NCBI GenBank assembly: GCA_027057985.1 | Contig: JALUTJ010000454.1 | Span: forward strand, 12,503-21,228 | Length of the DNA stretch: 8,726 nucleotides | Origin: Chromatiales bacterium | GTDB taxonomy: Bacteria; Pseudomonadota; Gammaproteobacteria; UBA6429; Thiohalophilaceae | Direction: 5' to 3' | Shown here: positions 3,023 to 8,017 of the stretch, one piece after another | How positions within the stretch are numbered: position 1 is the first letter of the stretch | How the letters are laid out: every line of letters starts with the position of its first letter | Notes under the pieces: model-generated | Told to the model about the DNA's origin: nothing | What the model saw: the letters and a program-made list of their open reading frames with translations, nothing else | Database searches by the model: none | Made by a program: the position numbers and the translations under genes

Positions 3023-3892
3023 TTATTGACCCGGCTTGATAGCTTCAATATGGGCGGAGACGACATAGTCGGTTACATTCTTACCCGGTGCCCAGTCGCG
3101 GATAAATTCCTTCGATTCATCTTTGGGGGTAATCCGGATCTGCTCAAAACCGGCCTGCTGCATCATGGCTTCAAGATCCGCGATCAGGGAGGCGCCGGCC
3201 ATGCAACCGGCATAAAGTGCGGGATCATTTTTCATTTCTTCCGGCATTTCACAGGTGGCGACAACATCGGAAATCGCCAGCCGGCCTCCGGGTTTGAGAA
3301 TACGCAGGGCATCCCGAAAGACCTGGGCCTTGTTTGGCGAGAGATTGATTACACAGTTAGAGATAATGACATCCACGCTATTATCTGCAACCGGCAGGTG
3401 TTCGATTTCACCAAGCCGGAATTCGACATTGTCAAAACCGGCAATTTCGGCATTGTTTCTGGCCTTGCTGAGCATGGTGGGGGTCATATCGATACCGATG
3501 ACCCGGCCGCTTTTACCGACTTCACGAGCGGCAAGAAAGGCATCGAATCCGCCACCAGCACCGAGATCAACCACGGTCTCACCGGCTTTTAGCGAGGCAA
3601 TCGCACGTGGATTACCGCAGCCCAGACCCATATCGGCCCCCTTGGGCACATTTTCCAGATCTTCTTCAGAATAGCCCAGGCGCAGGGAATTAAGGGTATT
3701 GATATCGATGTCTTCAGAAACTCCGCAGCAGCTGGATTCCACCCCACAGCTCTCATTGTTATTGCTGGCCTCGGCTACTTTGGCGTAACTCTCCCGGACA
3801 TGCTGGCGCACGCTGTCGGACTGGCTGTGTTGTTCGCTGGATGGAACTTCGCCACAGCAGGCAGATGAGTTACAGGAGGTGGATTCGCTCAT
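3023..3892 (-). CDS. arsM: Arsenite S-adenosylmethionine methyltransferase ArsM
   Basis: ArsM transfers methyl groups from S-adenosylmethionine to trivalent arsenic in the cytoplasm, giving methylated and eventually volatile arsines. The 289-residue protein has a class I methyltransferase core: motif I VVDLGAGGGFDAF (residues 107-119), the acidic motif GIDMTP (133-138), and LKPGGRLAISDV (199-210). The cysteines expected of ArsM are present: Cys92 in GLGCGNP, Cys180 in SNCVINL and Cys230 in YAGCMAGA, in the positions of the As(III)-binding cysteines of characterised ArsM proteins. Cys49 and Cys55-Cys56 (SSCCG) are candidates for the fourth conserved cysteine region. Further N-terminal cysteines Cys7 and Cys12-Cys13 form a Cys-rich leader. 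The ATG at 3892 has GGAG seven bases upstream. No arsR, arsB or acr3 is nearby. The gene is divergent from the histidine kinase and lies directly upstream of rapA. Confidence 0.94.
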   Translation of the reverse strand: MSESTSCNSSACCGEVPSSEQHSQSDSVRQHVRESYAKVAEASNNNESCGVESSCCGVSEDIDINTLNSLRLGYSEEDLENVPKGADMGLGCGNPRAIASLKAGETVVDLGAGGGFDAFLAAREVGKSGRVIGIDMTPTMLSKARNNAEIAGFDNVEFRLGEIEHLPVADNSVDVIISNCVINLSPNKAQVFRDALRILKPGGRLAISDVVATCEMPEEMKNDPALYAGCMAGASLIADLEAMMQQAGFEQIRITPKDESKEFIRDWAPGKNVTDYVVSAHIEAIKPGQ

Positions 3893-4093: not shown

Positions 4094-5551
4094 ATGAAGG
4101 TTATCTCAGAAGATTCATTGAAAATTGCGCTCGGTTTTCTCGTTATGCTGGTCCTGCTGGTAGTCATGACCCTGCTTGGCCTGAGCAAAATGCAGGATAT
4201 CCAGTCCAAGATCGAGGTTATTACCAGCGAAAATAATCTCAAGACCGAGCTGATGATGACCATTCGCCACGGCATTTATGAGCGTGAAGTGAGTCTACGC
4301 AATATCCTGTTACTGGATGACCCTTTTGAACGGGATGAAGGTAAGTCCCGTTTTAATCAGCATGCCATTGATATAGTCGCCGCCCGCAACCAGTTTGCGA
4401 CGATGCGGCTTAATGACAGGGAAAAACAATTACTAGAAGAAATCAATGCTGCCATGCGTAAGGCTTATTACGCCCAGGTTAATCTTATCGATAAAAGTAT
4501 CTATCGTGCCGAAGAGCCAATTACCCGGGATGAGATCGAACGAGCCTTTCAGACCCAGGAAGTATTTATGGAACGGGTTAAGCAGATGATTTCACTGCAA
4601 AAAAACGCAACTCAGAAAGCACTGAAGGATGCAAGACAGTCCTATAACCAGGCGCGTACTTCAATTTATATTCTCGGAAGCGCGGCCTTGCTGGTCGGAA
4701 GCCTGGTGGCTATTCTGGTTATTCGCCTTAATGAATCTCAGAGCCGTAGTATTCGTGAAGCTCTGCGCAAGGTCGAGGAGGCCAATAGCCAGTTAGAAGA
4801 TCGGGTGGAACGACGTACCCGGCAACTGGCACTGGCGCGTGATGAAGCGCTGGCCTCGAGCAAGGCAAAGGATGCCTTTATGGCAACCATGAGTCACGAG
4901 TTGCGTACTCCACTTAATATTATTCTTGGTTATAGCGAGCTACTGGAAGAAATCGTCGATGAAGACAGTCAGACACAGTATCTGCCAGACCTGAAAAAAA
5001 TCAAGAATGCCGCACAGCATCAACTGGGCCTGATTAACTCGATCCTGGATATATCAAAGATTGAGGAAGGTAAGCTGGATATTCACCCGGTTGAATTTAA
5101 TATTTGCGAATTACTGCATGATATAAAAGAAGCCGCGTTGCCGTTAATGGCGAAGAACCAGAACGCGTTTAACCTGAACTGCAGTAATAATGCCGGGATG
5201 ATGTATTCGGATGATACTCGTATTCGTCAGATTCTATTGAACCTGATCAGTAATGCTGCAAAGTTTACCGAGCAGGGTCAGGTATCTTTAAACGTTGAAG
5301 TTGATGAAAATGAAATTTCTTTTGTGGTAGAGGATACTGGCATTGGCATAGATGAGAATTACAAGAGCCAGTTATTCAAAAAGTTCTCACAGGAAGATAA
5401 TTCTACAACACGGCGTTATACCGGCTCCGGGCTTGGTCTTTCTATTTCACGTCACCTTGCAGTATTGCTAAAGGGCAGTATTTCTGTTGAAAGTGAAAAA
5501 GGAAAAGGTTCCAGGTTTACATTACGCCTGCCAATTATTTATGTGGAGTAG
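4094..5551 (+). CDS. Membrane sensor histidine kinase (orphan)
   Basis: This is a two-component sensor kinase of 485 residues. A first membrane helix (about 11-30) is followed by a periplasmic segment (31-189) that looks like a four-helix-bundle sensor. It includes VSLRNILLLDDPFERDEGKS-like text near residues 66-85, which resembles the 4HB_MCP type of chemoreceptors. A second membrane helix covers about 190-210. I see no clear HAMP domain; instead a charged coiled coil (about 215-260) leads to the H-box MSHELRTP with His268. The ATPase domain is complete: N-box NLISNAAKFT (Asn387), G1 EDTGIGI (413-419), F-box LFKKFSQED (427-435) and G2 GSGLGLSI (444-451). There is no receiver domain and no response regulator gene in the window, so its partner lies elsewhere. 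The ATG at 4094 is the only sensible start, because a stop lies four codons upstream in frame and the first helix begins by residue 11. The nearest AGGA is 13 bases away, so initiation may be modest. The ligand cannot be told from sequence. Confidence 0.92.
   Translation: MKVISEDSLKIALGFLVMLVLLVVMTLLGLSKMQDIQSKIEVITSENNLKTELMMTIRHGIYEREVSLRNILLLDDPFERDEGKSRFNQHAIDIVAARNQFATMRLNDREKQLLEEINAAMRKAYYAQVNLIDKSIYRAEEPITRDEIERAFQTQEVFMERVKQMISLQKNATQKALKDARQSYNQARTSIYILGSAALLVGSLVAILVIRLNESQSRSIREALRKVEEANSQLEDRVERRTRQLALARDEALASSKAKDAFMATMSHELRTPLNIILGYSELLEEIVDEDSQTQYLPDLKKIKNAAQHQLGLINSILDISKIEEGKLDIHPVEFNICELLHDIKEAALPLMAKNQNAFNLNCSNNAGMMYSDDTRIRQILLNLISNAAKFTEQGQVSLNVEVDENEISFVVEDTGIGIDENYKSQLFKKFSQEDNSTTRRYTGSGLGLSISRHLAVLLKGSISVESEKGKGSRFTLRLPIIYVE
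5545..5548 (+). promoter_or_regulatory. Shine-Dalgarno site of the 54-residue membrane protein gene
   Basis: GGAG lies six bases before the ATG at 5555, inside the last codons of the histidine kinase gene. It supports translation of the small downstream frame and its coupling to the kinase. Confidence 0.5.
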
Positions 5552-5554
5552 GGA

Positions 5555-5719
5555 ATGATAAGAATATTATCTATGTTGCTGGCCTCGCTGGCTTCCTACC
5601 TGGTTATCGACAAGTTACAGCCCTACGCCGGACTGAGTGTGCGTGCTTTTATCGGGTTGATCGCTTTCGTTGTTGTTTTTGTTTATACCGACCGTTACCT
5701 GAAGAATCTTCGGGATTGA
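5555..5719 (+). CDS. Small two-helix membrane protein (54 residues)
   Basis: This is a 54-codon frame, ATG at 5555 to TGA at 5717-5719. It begins three bases after the histidine kinase stop and has GGAG six bases upstream. The translation begins MIRILSMLLASLASYLVIDK and ends TDRYLKNLRD. It contains two hydrophobic stretches, about residues 2-18 and 29-46, joined by a short polar loop (DKLQPYAGLSVR) and followed by a positively charged tail. That suggests a hairpin in the inner membrane with both ends in the cytoplasm. I do not recognise a family. Its position between a membrane kinase and the MerB-like gene suggests an accessory role, perhaps with the kinase, but this is inference. That it is a real gene rests on the ribosome-binding site, the tight spacing and the coherent membrane topology. 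Confidence 0.65.
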   Translation: MIRILSMLLASLASYLVIDKLQPYAGLSVRAFIGLIAFVVVFVYTDRYLKNLRD

Positions 5720-5753
5720 AATTTTTCTGCAAGTTGTATGAGAGTGACAGAAA

Positions 5754-6371
5754 ATGATAAGAGCCGAAAATGCAATTGAAAGACTTAATACACTTTTACC
5801 GCTGGCACAACGTAAGCAGCAGCTGGATGAGGAAAGCCTGACAGCTTCCCTGAAAATCATGCAGCAACTGGCTTTTTATGGTCGGATTAATGATAAGTTT
5901 GAAACAGATATTATTAATAAACTGTCAGGCCAGGATCTTATTGTCATAGATGAAAAAACAGGTAAGATTAAAGGTGCCTATCCGTTTAGCCTGCAGCAAA
6001 CCGCACACCATCTTGTCTATAATGAAGTGAATATCTATGCCATGTGTGCCCTTGATGCACTGGCAGTGTCGGCAGTTTACGGTTTTCGGATGAAAATCAC
6101 CTCGCAGTGTGGATTAACCGAAACCCCCATTACGATTATTTTAAATGGCGACAGCACAGAAAAGGTTTCACCATTTAATGATGTACAGCTTGGTGTTCAG
6201 TGGCAGGACCCCGGTAGCTGTGCAGCGGATAATCTTTGCCTGCAGATGGTGTTTTTAAAGGATCGTAAAACCGCGGAACAATGGCAGTCTCGCTTTGCTG
6301 GCAGTGATATCTTTACCCTTGACGAAGCGATTTATTTTGCAGGCGAATATTTCAAACCCCTGTTAAAATAA
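5754..6371 (+). CDS. MerB-family organomercurial (alkylmercury) lyase-like protein
   Basis: MerB cleaves the carbon-mercury bond of organomercurials in the cytoplasm, releasing Hg(II). This 205-residue protein is close to the usual ~212. The N-terminal part (about 25-90) fits the winged-helix-like MerB domain, ending in IDEKTGKIKGAYPFSLQQT, which parallels the MerB segment before the active site. The core YAMCALDALAVSAVYG (residues 95-110) matches MerB YAWCALDT: Cys98 and Asp101 correspond to catalytic Cys96 and Asp99. Cys119 in TSQCG corresponds to structural Cys117. Cys162 in NLCLQMVFLKDRKTAEQW aligns with catalytic Cys159, with the TAE-x-W landmark at the same distance. The alignments were made from memory of the Tn501/R831-type MerB sequence. 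Overall identity looks low, so the true substrate is uncertain. No merA, merR or transport genes are in the window. The gene lies 34 bp after the small membrane gene and 4 bp before the DUF3301 gene. Its Shine-Dalgarno site is weak. Confidence 0.8.
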   Translation: MIRAENAIERLNTLLPLAQRKQQLDEESLTASLKIMQQLAFYGRINDKFETDIINKLSGQDLIVIDEKTGKIKGAYPFSLQQTAHHLVYNEVNIYAMCALDALAVSAVYGFRMKITSQCGLTETPITIILNGDSTEKVSPFNDVQLGVQWQDPGSCAADNLCLQMVFLKDRKTAEQWQSRFAGSDIFTLDEAIYFAGEYFKPLLK

Positions 6372-6375
6372 AGTA

Positions 6376-6681
6376 ATGGAACTGCTTATTGCTATAAGTA
6401 TGATTGCAGGGCTGGCTTACTGGCTGGACAGCATGCGTGCCAAGGAAATTGCAACCGAGGCCGCTCGCAGGCAATGTCAGAAATATCTGCTGGAATTTCT
6501 TGACGATACGGTACAGCTCAAAAAAGTGCGTTTACGTCGTAATGCTTATGGTCAACTTGGTTTTTTTCGCCAATACCGCTTTGAATTTACCAGTACCGGT
6601 CTACAACGCTACAGTGGTGAAGCACGCCTGATAAATAAAACCCTGCTTGGTATTAGCCTGCAACCTTACCAGTTTGAGTAA
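6376..6681 (+). CDS. DUF3301 family membrane-anchored protein
   Basis: The 101-residue protein fits DUF3301, a gammaproteobacterial family of unknown function. A hydrophobic N-terminus (residues 1-17, ending in Trp16) would anchor it in the inner membrane. The family-like body follows: RRQCQKYLLEFLDDTVQL (31-48, with Cys34 and the Asp43-Asp44 pair), then an Arg-rich stretch, RQYRFEFTSTGLQRYSGEARL (65-85) and a closing LGISLQPYQFE. It begins four bases after the MerB-like stop and lacks a good Shine-Dalgarno site, so translational coupling is likely. The last gene of this plus-strand run, it ends 3 bp from the convergent HopJ-family gene, leaving no space for a dedicated terminator. Confidence 0.85.
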   Translation: MELLIAISMIAGLAYWLDSMRAKEIATEAARRQCQKYLLEFLDDTVQLKKVRLRRNAYGQLGFFRQYRFEFTSTGLQRYSGEARLINKTLLGISLQPYQFE

Positions 6682-6684
6682 AAT

Positions 6685-7041
6685 TTATTTTCTGCTGAGT
6701 GGTGGCTGATCAAAATGAATTCCTTCCCAGCCATATTTCATAAAGTTACGAATATTGGCGTGGTCGCTGCCGCCGAGATTTAACAGCACATCCTGGCGGT
6801 AAAATCGACCAAAACAGGCCAGGGTCTGGGCTTCGTTAAGATCATTCATGTCGGCAAAAGCAAAGATTTTGCAGGAACCTTCATTGCTGCCGGCTTCATT
6901 GCTGACCCGGTTGTCCCCCATGCCATTATAAAATGTGGTTGGGGTATAGTCGTAGTCCTGGTCGATAACCGCCATCACCTGTTCAAATTCAACTTCAGTG
7001 GGATGGTTCTGGATTAGGTTAATCAGTTCCTGTGTATTCAT
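6685..7041 (-). CDS. HopJ type III effector family protein
   Basis: The 118-residue soluble protein matches the HopJ family (Pfam PF08888), named after a Pseudomonas syringae effector but widespread in free-living proteobacteria. Recognisable blocks are FYNGMGDNRVSNEAGSNEGS (37-56), CKIFAFADMNDL (57-68), TLACFGRFYRQDVL (73-86) and SDHANIRNFMKYGWEGIHF (92-110). There is no signal peptide and no type III secretion gene nearby, so an effector role is not supported here. The molecular function is unknown. The ATG at 7041 has AAGG ten bases upstream. It is convergent with the DUF3301 gene and separated from yeiP by a long structured intergenic region. Confidence 0.9.
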   Translation of the reverse strand: MNTQELINLIQNHPTEVEFEQVMAVIDQDYDYTPTTFYNGMGDNRVSNEAGSNEGSCKIFAFADMNDLNEAQTLACFGRFYRQDVLLNLGGSDHANIRNFMKYGWEGIHFDQPPLSRK

Positions 7042-7450: not shown

Positions 7451-8017
7451 GTGCCAAAAGCCAGCGAATTAAAAAAAGGAATGGTGGTCGAGATTAATGG
7501 TGATCCCCATGCCGTGAAACAGGTCGAGGTGAAAAGCCCATCGTCGCGCGGCGCATCTACCCTGTACAAGGTGCGTTTTAATAACCTCAAAACCGGGCAA
7601 AAGCTGGACGAGTCCTACAAGGGCGAGGACATGCTCAAGGATGCCGATTGTGTTCGGGTGCAGGTGCAGTTTTCCTATGTCGATGGTGATGACTACACGT
7701 TTATGAATATGGAAGATTATAGCCAGTACACTCTGAACCGGGATGACATCGCGGATGAAGTGGGTTACCTGACTGAAGGGCTGGACGGTATCTTTGCCCT
7801 GATTATGGATGATGTCATGCTGGGGATTGAGCTGCCACAGTCGGTGGTGCTGGACATTACTGAAACTGCACCGGCTATCAAGGGAGCAACCGCAACTGGG
7901 CGTACCAAGCCGGCGATCCTGTCCAGCGGTCTTGAAATACAGGTACCAGAATATCTGGAGCCGGGTGAACAGGTAAAAGTCAATACCACCAATGCAAAGT
8001 TTATGTCGCGAGCATAA
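7451..8017 (+). CDS. yeiP: Elongation factor P-like protein YeiP (EfpL)
   Basis: YeiP/EfpL is a paralogue of elongation factor P that acts at the ribosomal E site to relieve stalling on proline-rich and related motifs. From the GTG at 7451 the product is 188 residues, against 190 in E. coli, and begins (V/M)PKASELKKGMVVEINGDP like the E. coli MPRANEIKKGM. Three beta-barrel domains are expected: a KOW-like domain (1 to about 63) and two OB domains. The loop that enters the peptidyl-transferase centre reads SPSSRGAS, with Arg33 at the tip, the position of Arg33 in E. coli YeiP. This separates it from canonical EF-P, which has a modified lysine. The C-terminal signature IKGATATGRTKPAILSSGLEIQVPEYLEPGE is well conserved. 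An in-frame ATG at 7403 would add 16 residues, but it lies upstream of the TATAAT box and the family N-terminus supports the GTG. It is convergent with the DUF3820 gene, with 15 bp between stops. Confidence 0.95.
   Translation: MPKASELKKGMVVEINGDPHAVKQVEVKSPSSRGASTLYKVRFNNLKTGQKLDESYKGEDMLKDADCVRVQVQFSYVDGDDYTFMNMEDYSQYTLNRDDIADEVGYLTEGLDGIFALIMDDVMLGIELPQSVVLDITETAPAIKGATATGRTKPAILSSGLEIQVPEYLEPGEQVKVNTTNAKFMSRA

Follow-up and report, generated by a model that had tools for sequence, protein, structure and literature searches.

A divergent MerB-family protein of a Chromatiales bacterium and a putative CopZ-type metallochaperone as candidate recipient of its mercury

The stretch of DNA analyzed here (the window) covers 8,726 nucleotides of contig JALUTJ010000454.1 (C454), from a Chromatiales bacterium of the family Thiohalophilaceae, and contains a gene whose product is a divergent MerB-family (organomercurial lyase) protein that has kept the full catalytic set. 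The encoded lyase is predicted to break C-Hg bonds, and we tentatively favor a reading in which the freed Hg(II) is passed to a putative CopZ-type [2Fe-2S] metallochaperone and not to the reductase MerA. Judged by its sequence, the protein does not appear to be a classical mer-operon MerB.

The occurrence of MerB without MerA is already known. According to Christakis et al. (2021, PMC8261052), MerA is missing from 906 of 1795 MerB-encoding genomes, and routes for Hg(II) that bypass MerA have been proposed; the authors ask how MerB can complete its turnover and how cells cope with the Hg(II) set free. The MerB-CopZ fusions described below offer a concrete, testable answer, namely, a dedicated metal-accepting protein. 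Since one of them is found in a collection strain, Thiohalospira halophila DSM 15071, direct testing is feasible, and the outcome bears on how environmental surveys read methylmercury demethylation from merA/merB counts. No report of a MerB-CopZ link was found in paper titles or the beginnings of abstracts, a search that left out most subscription journals and is thus weak evidence of absence; in the available text of PMC8261052, “fusion” and “chaperone” do not occur, and “fused” occurs once, about hgcAB.

Family, fold, and catalytic residues of the MerB-like protein

The gene and the codons of its key residues are as follows (window coordinates; residue equivalences from the alignment to PDB 1s6l).

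5754..6371, plus strand: MerB-like gene of the organomercurial lyase type, 205 amino acids (contig C454, JALUTJ010000454.1:18256-18873)
6045..6056, plus strand: codons of Cys98 (6045-6047) and Asp101 (6054-6056), equivalent to MerB Cys96 and Asp99
6108..6110, plus strand: codon of Cys119, equivalent to the structural MerB Cys117
6237..6239, plus strand: codon of Cys162, equivalent to MerB Cys159

The protein matches the Pfam MerB profile (PF03243) with 88.2 bits and an E value of 5.5e-25, well over the gathering cut-off of 27. In structural alignments, from which PDB rows ranked below NosL were left out, the MerB fold, including its N-terminal domain, extends across the whole protein, which superposes on MerB structures (PDB 1s6l, 3f0o, and 3f2g). 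Together with the catalytic residues, these results bear out the initial annotation, which had read the gene from its letters as a MerB homolog with a complete catalytic set. The positions of Cys98, Cys119, and Cys162 are kept in 103/103 sequences of the clade to which the protein belongs, and that of Asp101 is kept in 102/103; in one clade member, L091 (genome G384), the catalytic Asp is replaced by Glu.

The protein nevertheless differs from classical MerB in several respects. Identity in the structural alignments is 22-23%, Leu163 stands where 1s6l has a second Cys, and PF12324, the N-terminal domain profile that the initial annotation had paired with PF03243, gave no match at E 10, while the controls L084 and L086 do match it. 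Variants of the catalytic Asp had been put forward for comparison: Bacillus MerB2 (PDB 5c17) has Ser in place of this residue (PMC8261052), whereas the window protein retains Asp101.

CopZ-type proteins next to mer genes and fused to MerB

The contig carrying the window also holds a merT-merP-copZ run on its minus strand.

C454:165-599, minus strand: CopZ_Nterm_CC, “putative iron-sulfur cluster-binding metallochaperone” (NF047645, 156.8 bits, cut-off 100)
C454:612-929, minus strand: MerP (TIGR02052, 100.2 bits, cut-off 92.55)
C454:933-1346, minus strand: MerT (PF02411, 123 bits, cut-off 32.9)

Only 12 bases separate merP from copZ, which leaves no room for an intervening merA; past copZ, another 164 bases remain before the end of the contig. 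The nearest solved relative of the CopZ-type protein is PDB 2hu9 (E 1.3e-13), whose entry title reads “Mercuric transport protein periplasmic component” and which we take to be the N-terminal [2Fe-2S]/Zn domain of Archaeoglobus fulgidus CopZ. Unlike that CopZ, the contig's protein has no match to an HMA domain and adjoins merP and merT. A cluster in the contig's protein is suggested by its family name.

The absence of a mer operon claimed by the initial annotation thus holds in part: there are no mer genes within the window, and no MerA over the cut-off was found in its assembly (94.85% complete; best match, E 5e-24), but the merT-merP-copZ run is present on the same contig. Reliance on a distant merA, also considered at that stage, finds little encouragement, since none was found in this incomplete assembly and only 1/7 genus genomes tested has MerA over the cut-off, although this is not proof. 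In contrast, CopZ_Nterm_CC is present in 8/8 genus genomes searched. Two of these (G418 and G420; loci L136 and L137) have merT-merP-copZ without merA, and in the sister genome G424 (L138) the order is MerR-family gene, merT, merP, merA, copZ.

CopZ and MerB are also physically joined, in both orders. In Thioalkalivibrio sp. SpSt-1174 (L036), a 377-amino-acid fusion consists of CopZ_Nterm_CC (residues 1-146) followed by a MerB domain of the clade (173-363), and four more proteins carry both domains (P0070-P0073; a further one, P0074, is partial). The reverse order occurs in T. halophila DSM 15071 (G138), where 354 amino acids comprise a classical-type MerB with PF12324 (23-212) and then CopZ_Nterm_CC (215-352); this fusion has two relatives (P0135 and P0136), and no MerA exceeds the cut-off in its genome, which is absent from the 72 MerA-bearing genomes of the 369-genome class sample described below. 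On plasmid pDrdI of Deinococcus wulumuqiensis, a MerR-type gene is followed by copZ and merB, which share 8 bases. On a Methylomonas plasmid, copZ is accompanied by a MerR-family gene and by merT- and merP-like genes that score under the NCBIfam MerT and MerP cut-offs; the 7.4 kb shown contain no merA. On a plasmid of Planctomycetes bacterium K2D (L146:3004-4239) a gene annotated as merA encodes a CopZ-MerT-MerP fusion, not a reductase. Among the six copZ-bearing plasmid stretches examined, one (Alicyclobacillus) shows no mer gene. Because two fusion orders arise on two MerB lineages, and because of the overlapping pair and the common gene runs, the CopZ-type protein likely works together with MerB.

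We sampled 369 genomes of the window's class, taking E < 1e-60 as clade membership: 17 genomes have a clade member, 17 others have only a more distant MerB homolog, and 335 have no MerB. CopZ occurs in 5/17, 2/17, and 21/335 of these, respectively (p 0.005, first versus last), and in 4/16 clade genomes once the Thioalkalivibrio fusion genome is removed (p 0.02). The co-occurrence counts from this sample, here and below, are uncorrected for kinship, which lessens what they contribute to the case for CopZ.

The proposed route would begin with MerT and MerP bringing mercurials into the cell. The MerB-like enzyme is predicted to remove the organic group by protonolysis via Cys98, Cys162, and Asp101, its substrate presumably being methylmercury or a like organomercurial. 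CopZ would then accept Hg(II) in trans, in the place of MerA, and the final fate of the metal might be binding to thiols, conversion to HgS, or reduction. A broader and more doubtful idea is that organomercury detoxification can be completed by a second route, with a CopZ-type [2Fe-2S] metallochaperone receiving Hg(II) from MerB-type lyases in place of MerA and perhaps reducing or storing it. The Thioalkalivibrio and T. halophila fusions, the overlapping Deinococcus pair, and the merT-merP-copZ run of the window's contig might then represent a single mercury system, free of a reductase, in four arrangements.

Other genes recur near copZ. On contig C454 (L135:1436-3018), a thioredoxin-like gene and one for a DsbD_TM/ArsG-like membrane protein lie on the opposite strand beside the run, as also in L137, and the Deinococcus copZ-merB run includes TlpA and CcdA genes; such thioredoxin-like and DsbD-type neighbors are possible redox partners of the CopZ system. 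A gene for a PhoX-like protein adjoins copZ in two genus genomes (L137:4765-6108 and L138:9899-11221).

Distribution of the clade and its relation to merA

By record titles, the clade occurs in Gamma-, Beta-, and Alphaproteobacteria, the former Deltaproteobacteria, Acidobacteria, and Anaerolineae. In the class sample, MerA exceeds its cut-off in 5/17 clade genomes versus 12/17 genomes with other MerBs (p 0.038), and in 55/335 of those without MerB. The MerB-type gene and MerA lie no more than 5 kb apart in 0/17 clade genomes and in 8/17 of the other-MerB genomes (p 0.0027). One clade genome, G386, additionally holds a MerB of the distant type adjoining its MerA. In another search, which covered the genome of the window and the genomes behind 49 of the 80 clade loci (50 in total), MerA was over the cut-off in nine. 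Given these low counts, the clade gene is as a rule not a mer-operon gene.

Two quick trees were built. The first contained 97 rows after removal of duplicates (identical rows) and of two partial loci, L068 and L081, and it separated the classical MerBs, along with one MerA-linked gene from the class sample (L105), from the clade with a support of 94. In the second, built from 62 chosen rows that included metagenome relatives, the split between classical MerBs and the clade has no support, the clade rows L032 and L094 fall on the classical side, and the place of the root is unsupported; the border of the clade is therefore not firm. The window sequence groups there with P0003 (support 100), within a 17-row group that includes the other six genus members (94). 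In the first tree it had stood next to the Thioalkalivibrio fusion (support 90), a placement that we dropped as a long-branch effect because the second tree groups it with its own genus.

A tie between the clade and mercury is provided by plasmid pSn of Simkania negevensis (L082:3519-5995), where a MerR-family gene is followed by a MerA fusion whose MerB-like part belongs to the clade. Downstream of this fusion lies an unannotated, weakly MerT-like open reading frame (ORF; 5663-5995). Eight clade proteins of MerB-only length bear the name “mercuric reductase” in data of the Joint Genome Institute (P0040, P0078, P0090, P0103, P0115, P0120, P0125, and P0128); this is probably a transferred name, which may stem from a MerA-MerB fusion.

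Gene maps were drawn by ORF calling, which recovered the MerB ORF in 71/81 sequences (the window and 70 of the 80 loci); the remaining 10 loci were dropped from neighbor counts. Among 56 hand-picked neighbors (55 on the same strand) of clade members outside the genus, no shared partner emerged, the commonest families reaching 3/56. Three HGD-D rows among these fit the neighbors of SAO-type operons, which had been included by choice.

The arsM neighborhood and competing explanations

Within the window, the MerB-like gene stands in a block conserved in the seven genus genomes in which the locus is assembled, with arsM on one strand, the genes for a small membrane protein, the MerB-like protein, and a DUF3301 protein on the other, and a HopJ-family gene at the end.

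3023..3892, minus strand: arsM, encoding an arsenite methyltransferase and oriented away from the run (NF008823, 367.1 bits, cut-off 263; 7/7 genus loci)
4094..5551, plus strand: sensor histidine kinase with 4HB_MCP_1, HisKA, and HATPase_c, no receiver domain matched (same place in 5/7 genus loci)
5555..5719, plus strand: small membrane protein of 54 amino acids, hydrophobic by reading, no family over cut-off (7/7 genus loci)
6376..6681, plus strand: DUF3301 protein, starting 4 bases past the MerB-like gene (PF11743, E 1.8e-26; 7/7 genus loci)
6685..7041, minus strand: HopJ-family gene closing the block, with no role proposed alongside the lyase (PF08888, E 2.2e-44; 7/7 genus loci)

An ArsR-type gene adjoins arsM in 6/7 genus loci, the window being the exception, and no ArsR match was found in its genome at E 0.01. 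In G423, the eighth genome of the genus, a contig ends at the HopJ gene, so the absence of the MerB-like gene there is uninformative. Rfam gave no match in the window, and a promoter scan returned 6 sites versus 5.9 expected by chance. The histidine kinase was considered as a thiol-based metal sensor and rejected: its sensor part is free of Cys, and its only cysteines (338 and 363) lie outside that part.

Several observations weigh against a hand-off of mercury to CopZ. In all seven assembled genus loci the gene adjoins arsM and not mer genes, and on C454 it lies 16.9 kb from the merT-merP-copZ run. For the contig's MerR-family gene, CueR is the best-scoring model and no cut-off is reached, and MerT occurs in only 4/8 genus genomes. 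The protein also falls short of the NCBIfam MerB cut-offs (NF033555 / NF009710, 61.3 of 200 and 60.3 of 193 bits). The absence of merA is less certain than it seems, since the other 49 genomes all give E 1e-64 or better with the MerA model, mostly through flavoproteins below the MerA cut-off, and the lack of such strong matches in the window's own metagenome-assembled genome points to possible gaps. On pDrdI, the copZ-merB pair is followed downstream by a MerA-superfamily flavoprotein; the scan, of just a truncated piece of it, gave a best match other than MerA. Moreover, CopZ adjoins an intact merA in L138 and L145, and the Thioalkalivibrio SpSt-1174 genome (G027/G386) has MerA apart from the fusion; CopZ therefore appears to be a companion of MerA as well as a possible stand-in. 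Finally, among clade genomes outside the genus, CopZ is found in 9/43 and is missing from 34/43; it cannot be the partner everywhere, and most clade members do without it.

The lack of CopZ in 34/43 of these genomes and the MerA of the Thioalkalivibrio fusion genome would also suit an ordinary organomercurial lyase whose Hg(II) is taken by glutathione or sulfide, with CopZ playing no special part and the fusions being accidents of genome history. MerA-independent reduction and thiol and sulfide routes are discussed in PMC8261052. Two fusion orders on two MerB lineages, together with the overlapping genes on the Deinococcus plasmid, speak against it, and we regard this explanation as improbable. 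The chief rival to the CopZ route is suggested by the neighborhood itself, in which arsM is constant and an ArsR-type gene frequent: the enzyme could be an organoarsenical lyase, demethylating trivalent methylarsenicals made by ArsM or by neighboring organisms without oxygen, as a counterpart to ArsI. ArsM over the cut-off is also enriched in clade genomes (11/17 versus 52/335 without MerB, p 1.4e-5). However, it occurs in 7/17 other-MerB genomes as well (p 0.30 for the difference from the clade), and the enrichment is not clade specific. The link to arsM is real but seen in one genus only; in eight genomes from elsewhere in the family, outside this genus, the gene has different surroundings, with no arsM among the neighboring genes shown. 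This restriction lowers the arsenic explanation, as do the missing ArsR gene and the clade members linked elsewhere to mercury genes by MerA and CopZ fusions, and we consider it rather unlikely.

A lyase for another organometal, such as organotin, organolead, or a still unknown natural compound, has a precedent in the proposal made for SaoL (NF040728), the MerB-like organometallic lyase of the SAO system. The window protein shares the MerB-like domain with SaoL, and this kind of substrate stays possible because three clade members sit in SAO-type operons. In these operons, all from the former Deltaproteobacteria, a clade member occupies the lyase position (L010:8418-11803, with SaoE, SaoC, and SaoX over their cut-offs, and L055 and L062, assigned by similarity to the L010 genes), and it may possibly have replaced SaoL. 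Canonical MerB itself has been solved in what we take to be organotin and organolead complexes (PDB 5u79-5u7c). On the other hand, the SAO-linked members score 52-62 bits and the window protein 47.8 bits against the SaoL equivalog cut-off of 140, no SAO gene is matched in the window, and the passages of PMC13188914 consulted name no SAO substrate; a substrate of this kind seems quite unlikely for the window protein. It is highly improbable that the protein has ceased to be a lyase and become a metal-binding or regulatory protein of the histidine kinase-DUF3301 run, given that it and 102/103 clade sequences keep all three catalytic residues.

Beyond the conserved block, the window encodes a paralog of elongation factor P (7451-8017) that matches NCBIfam EfpL over the cut-off.
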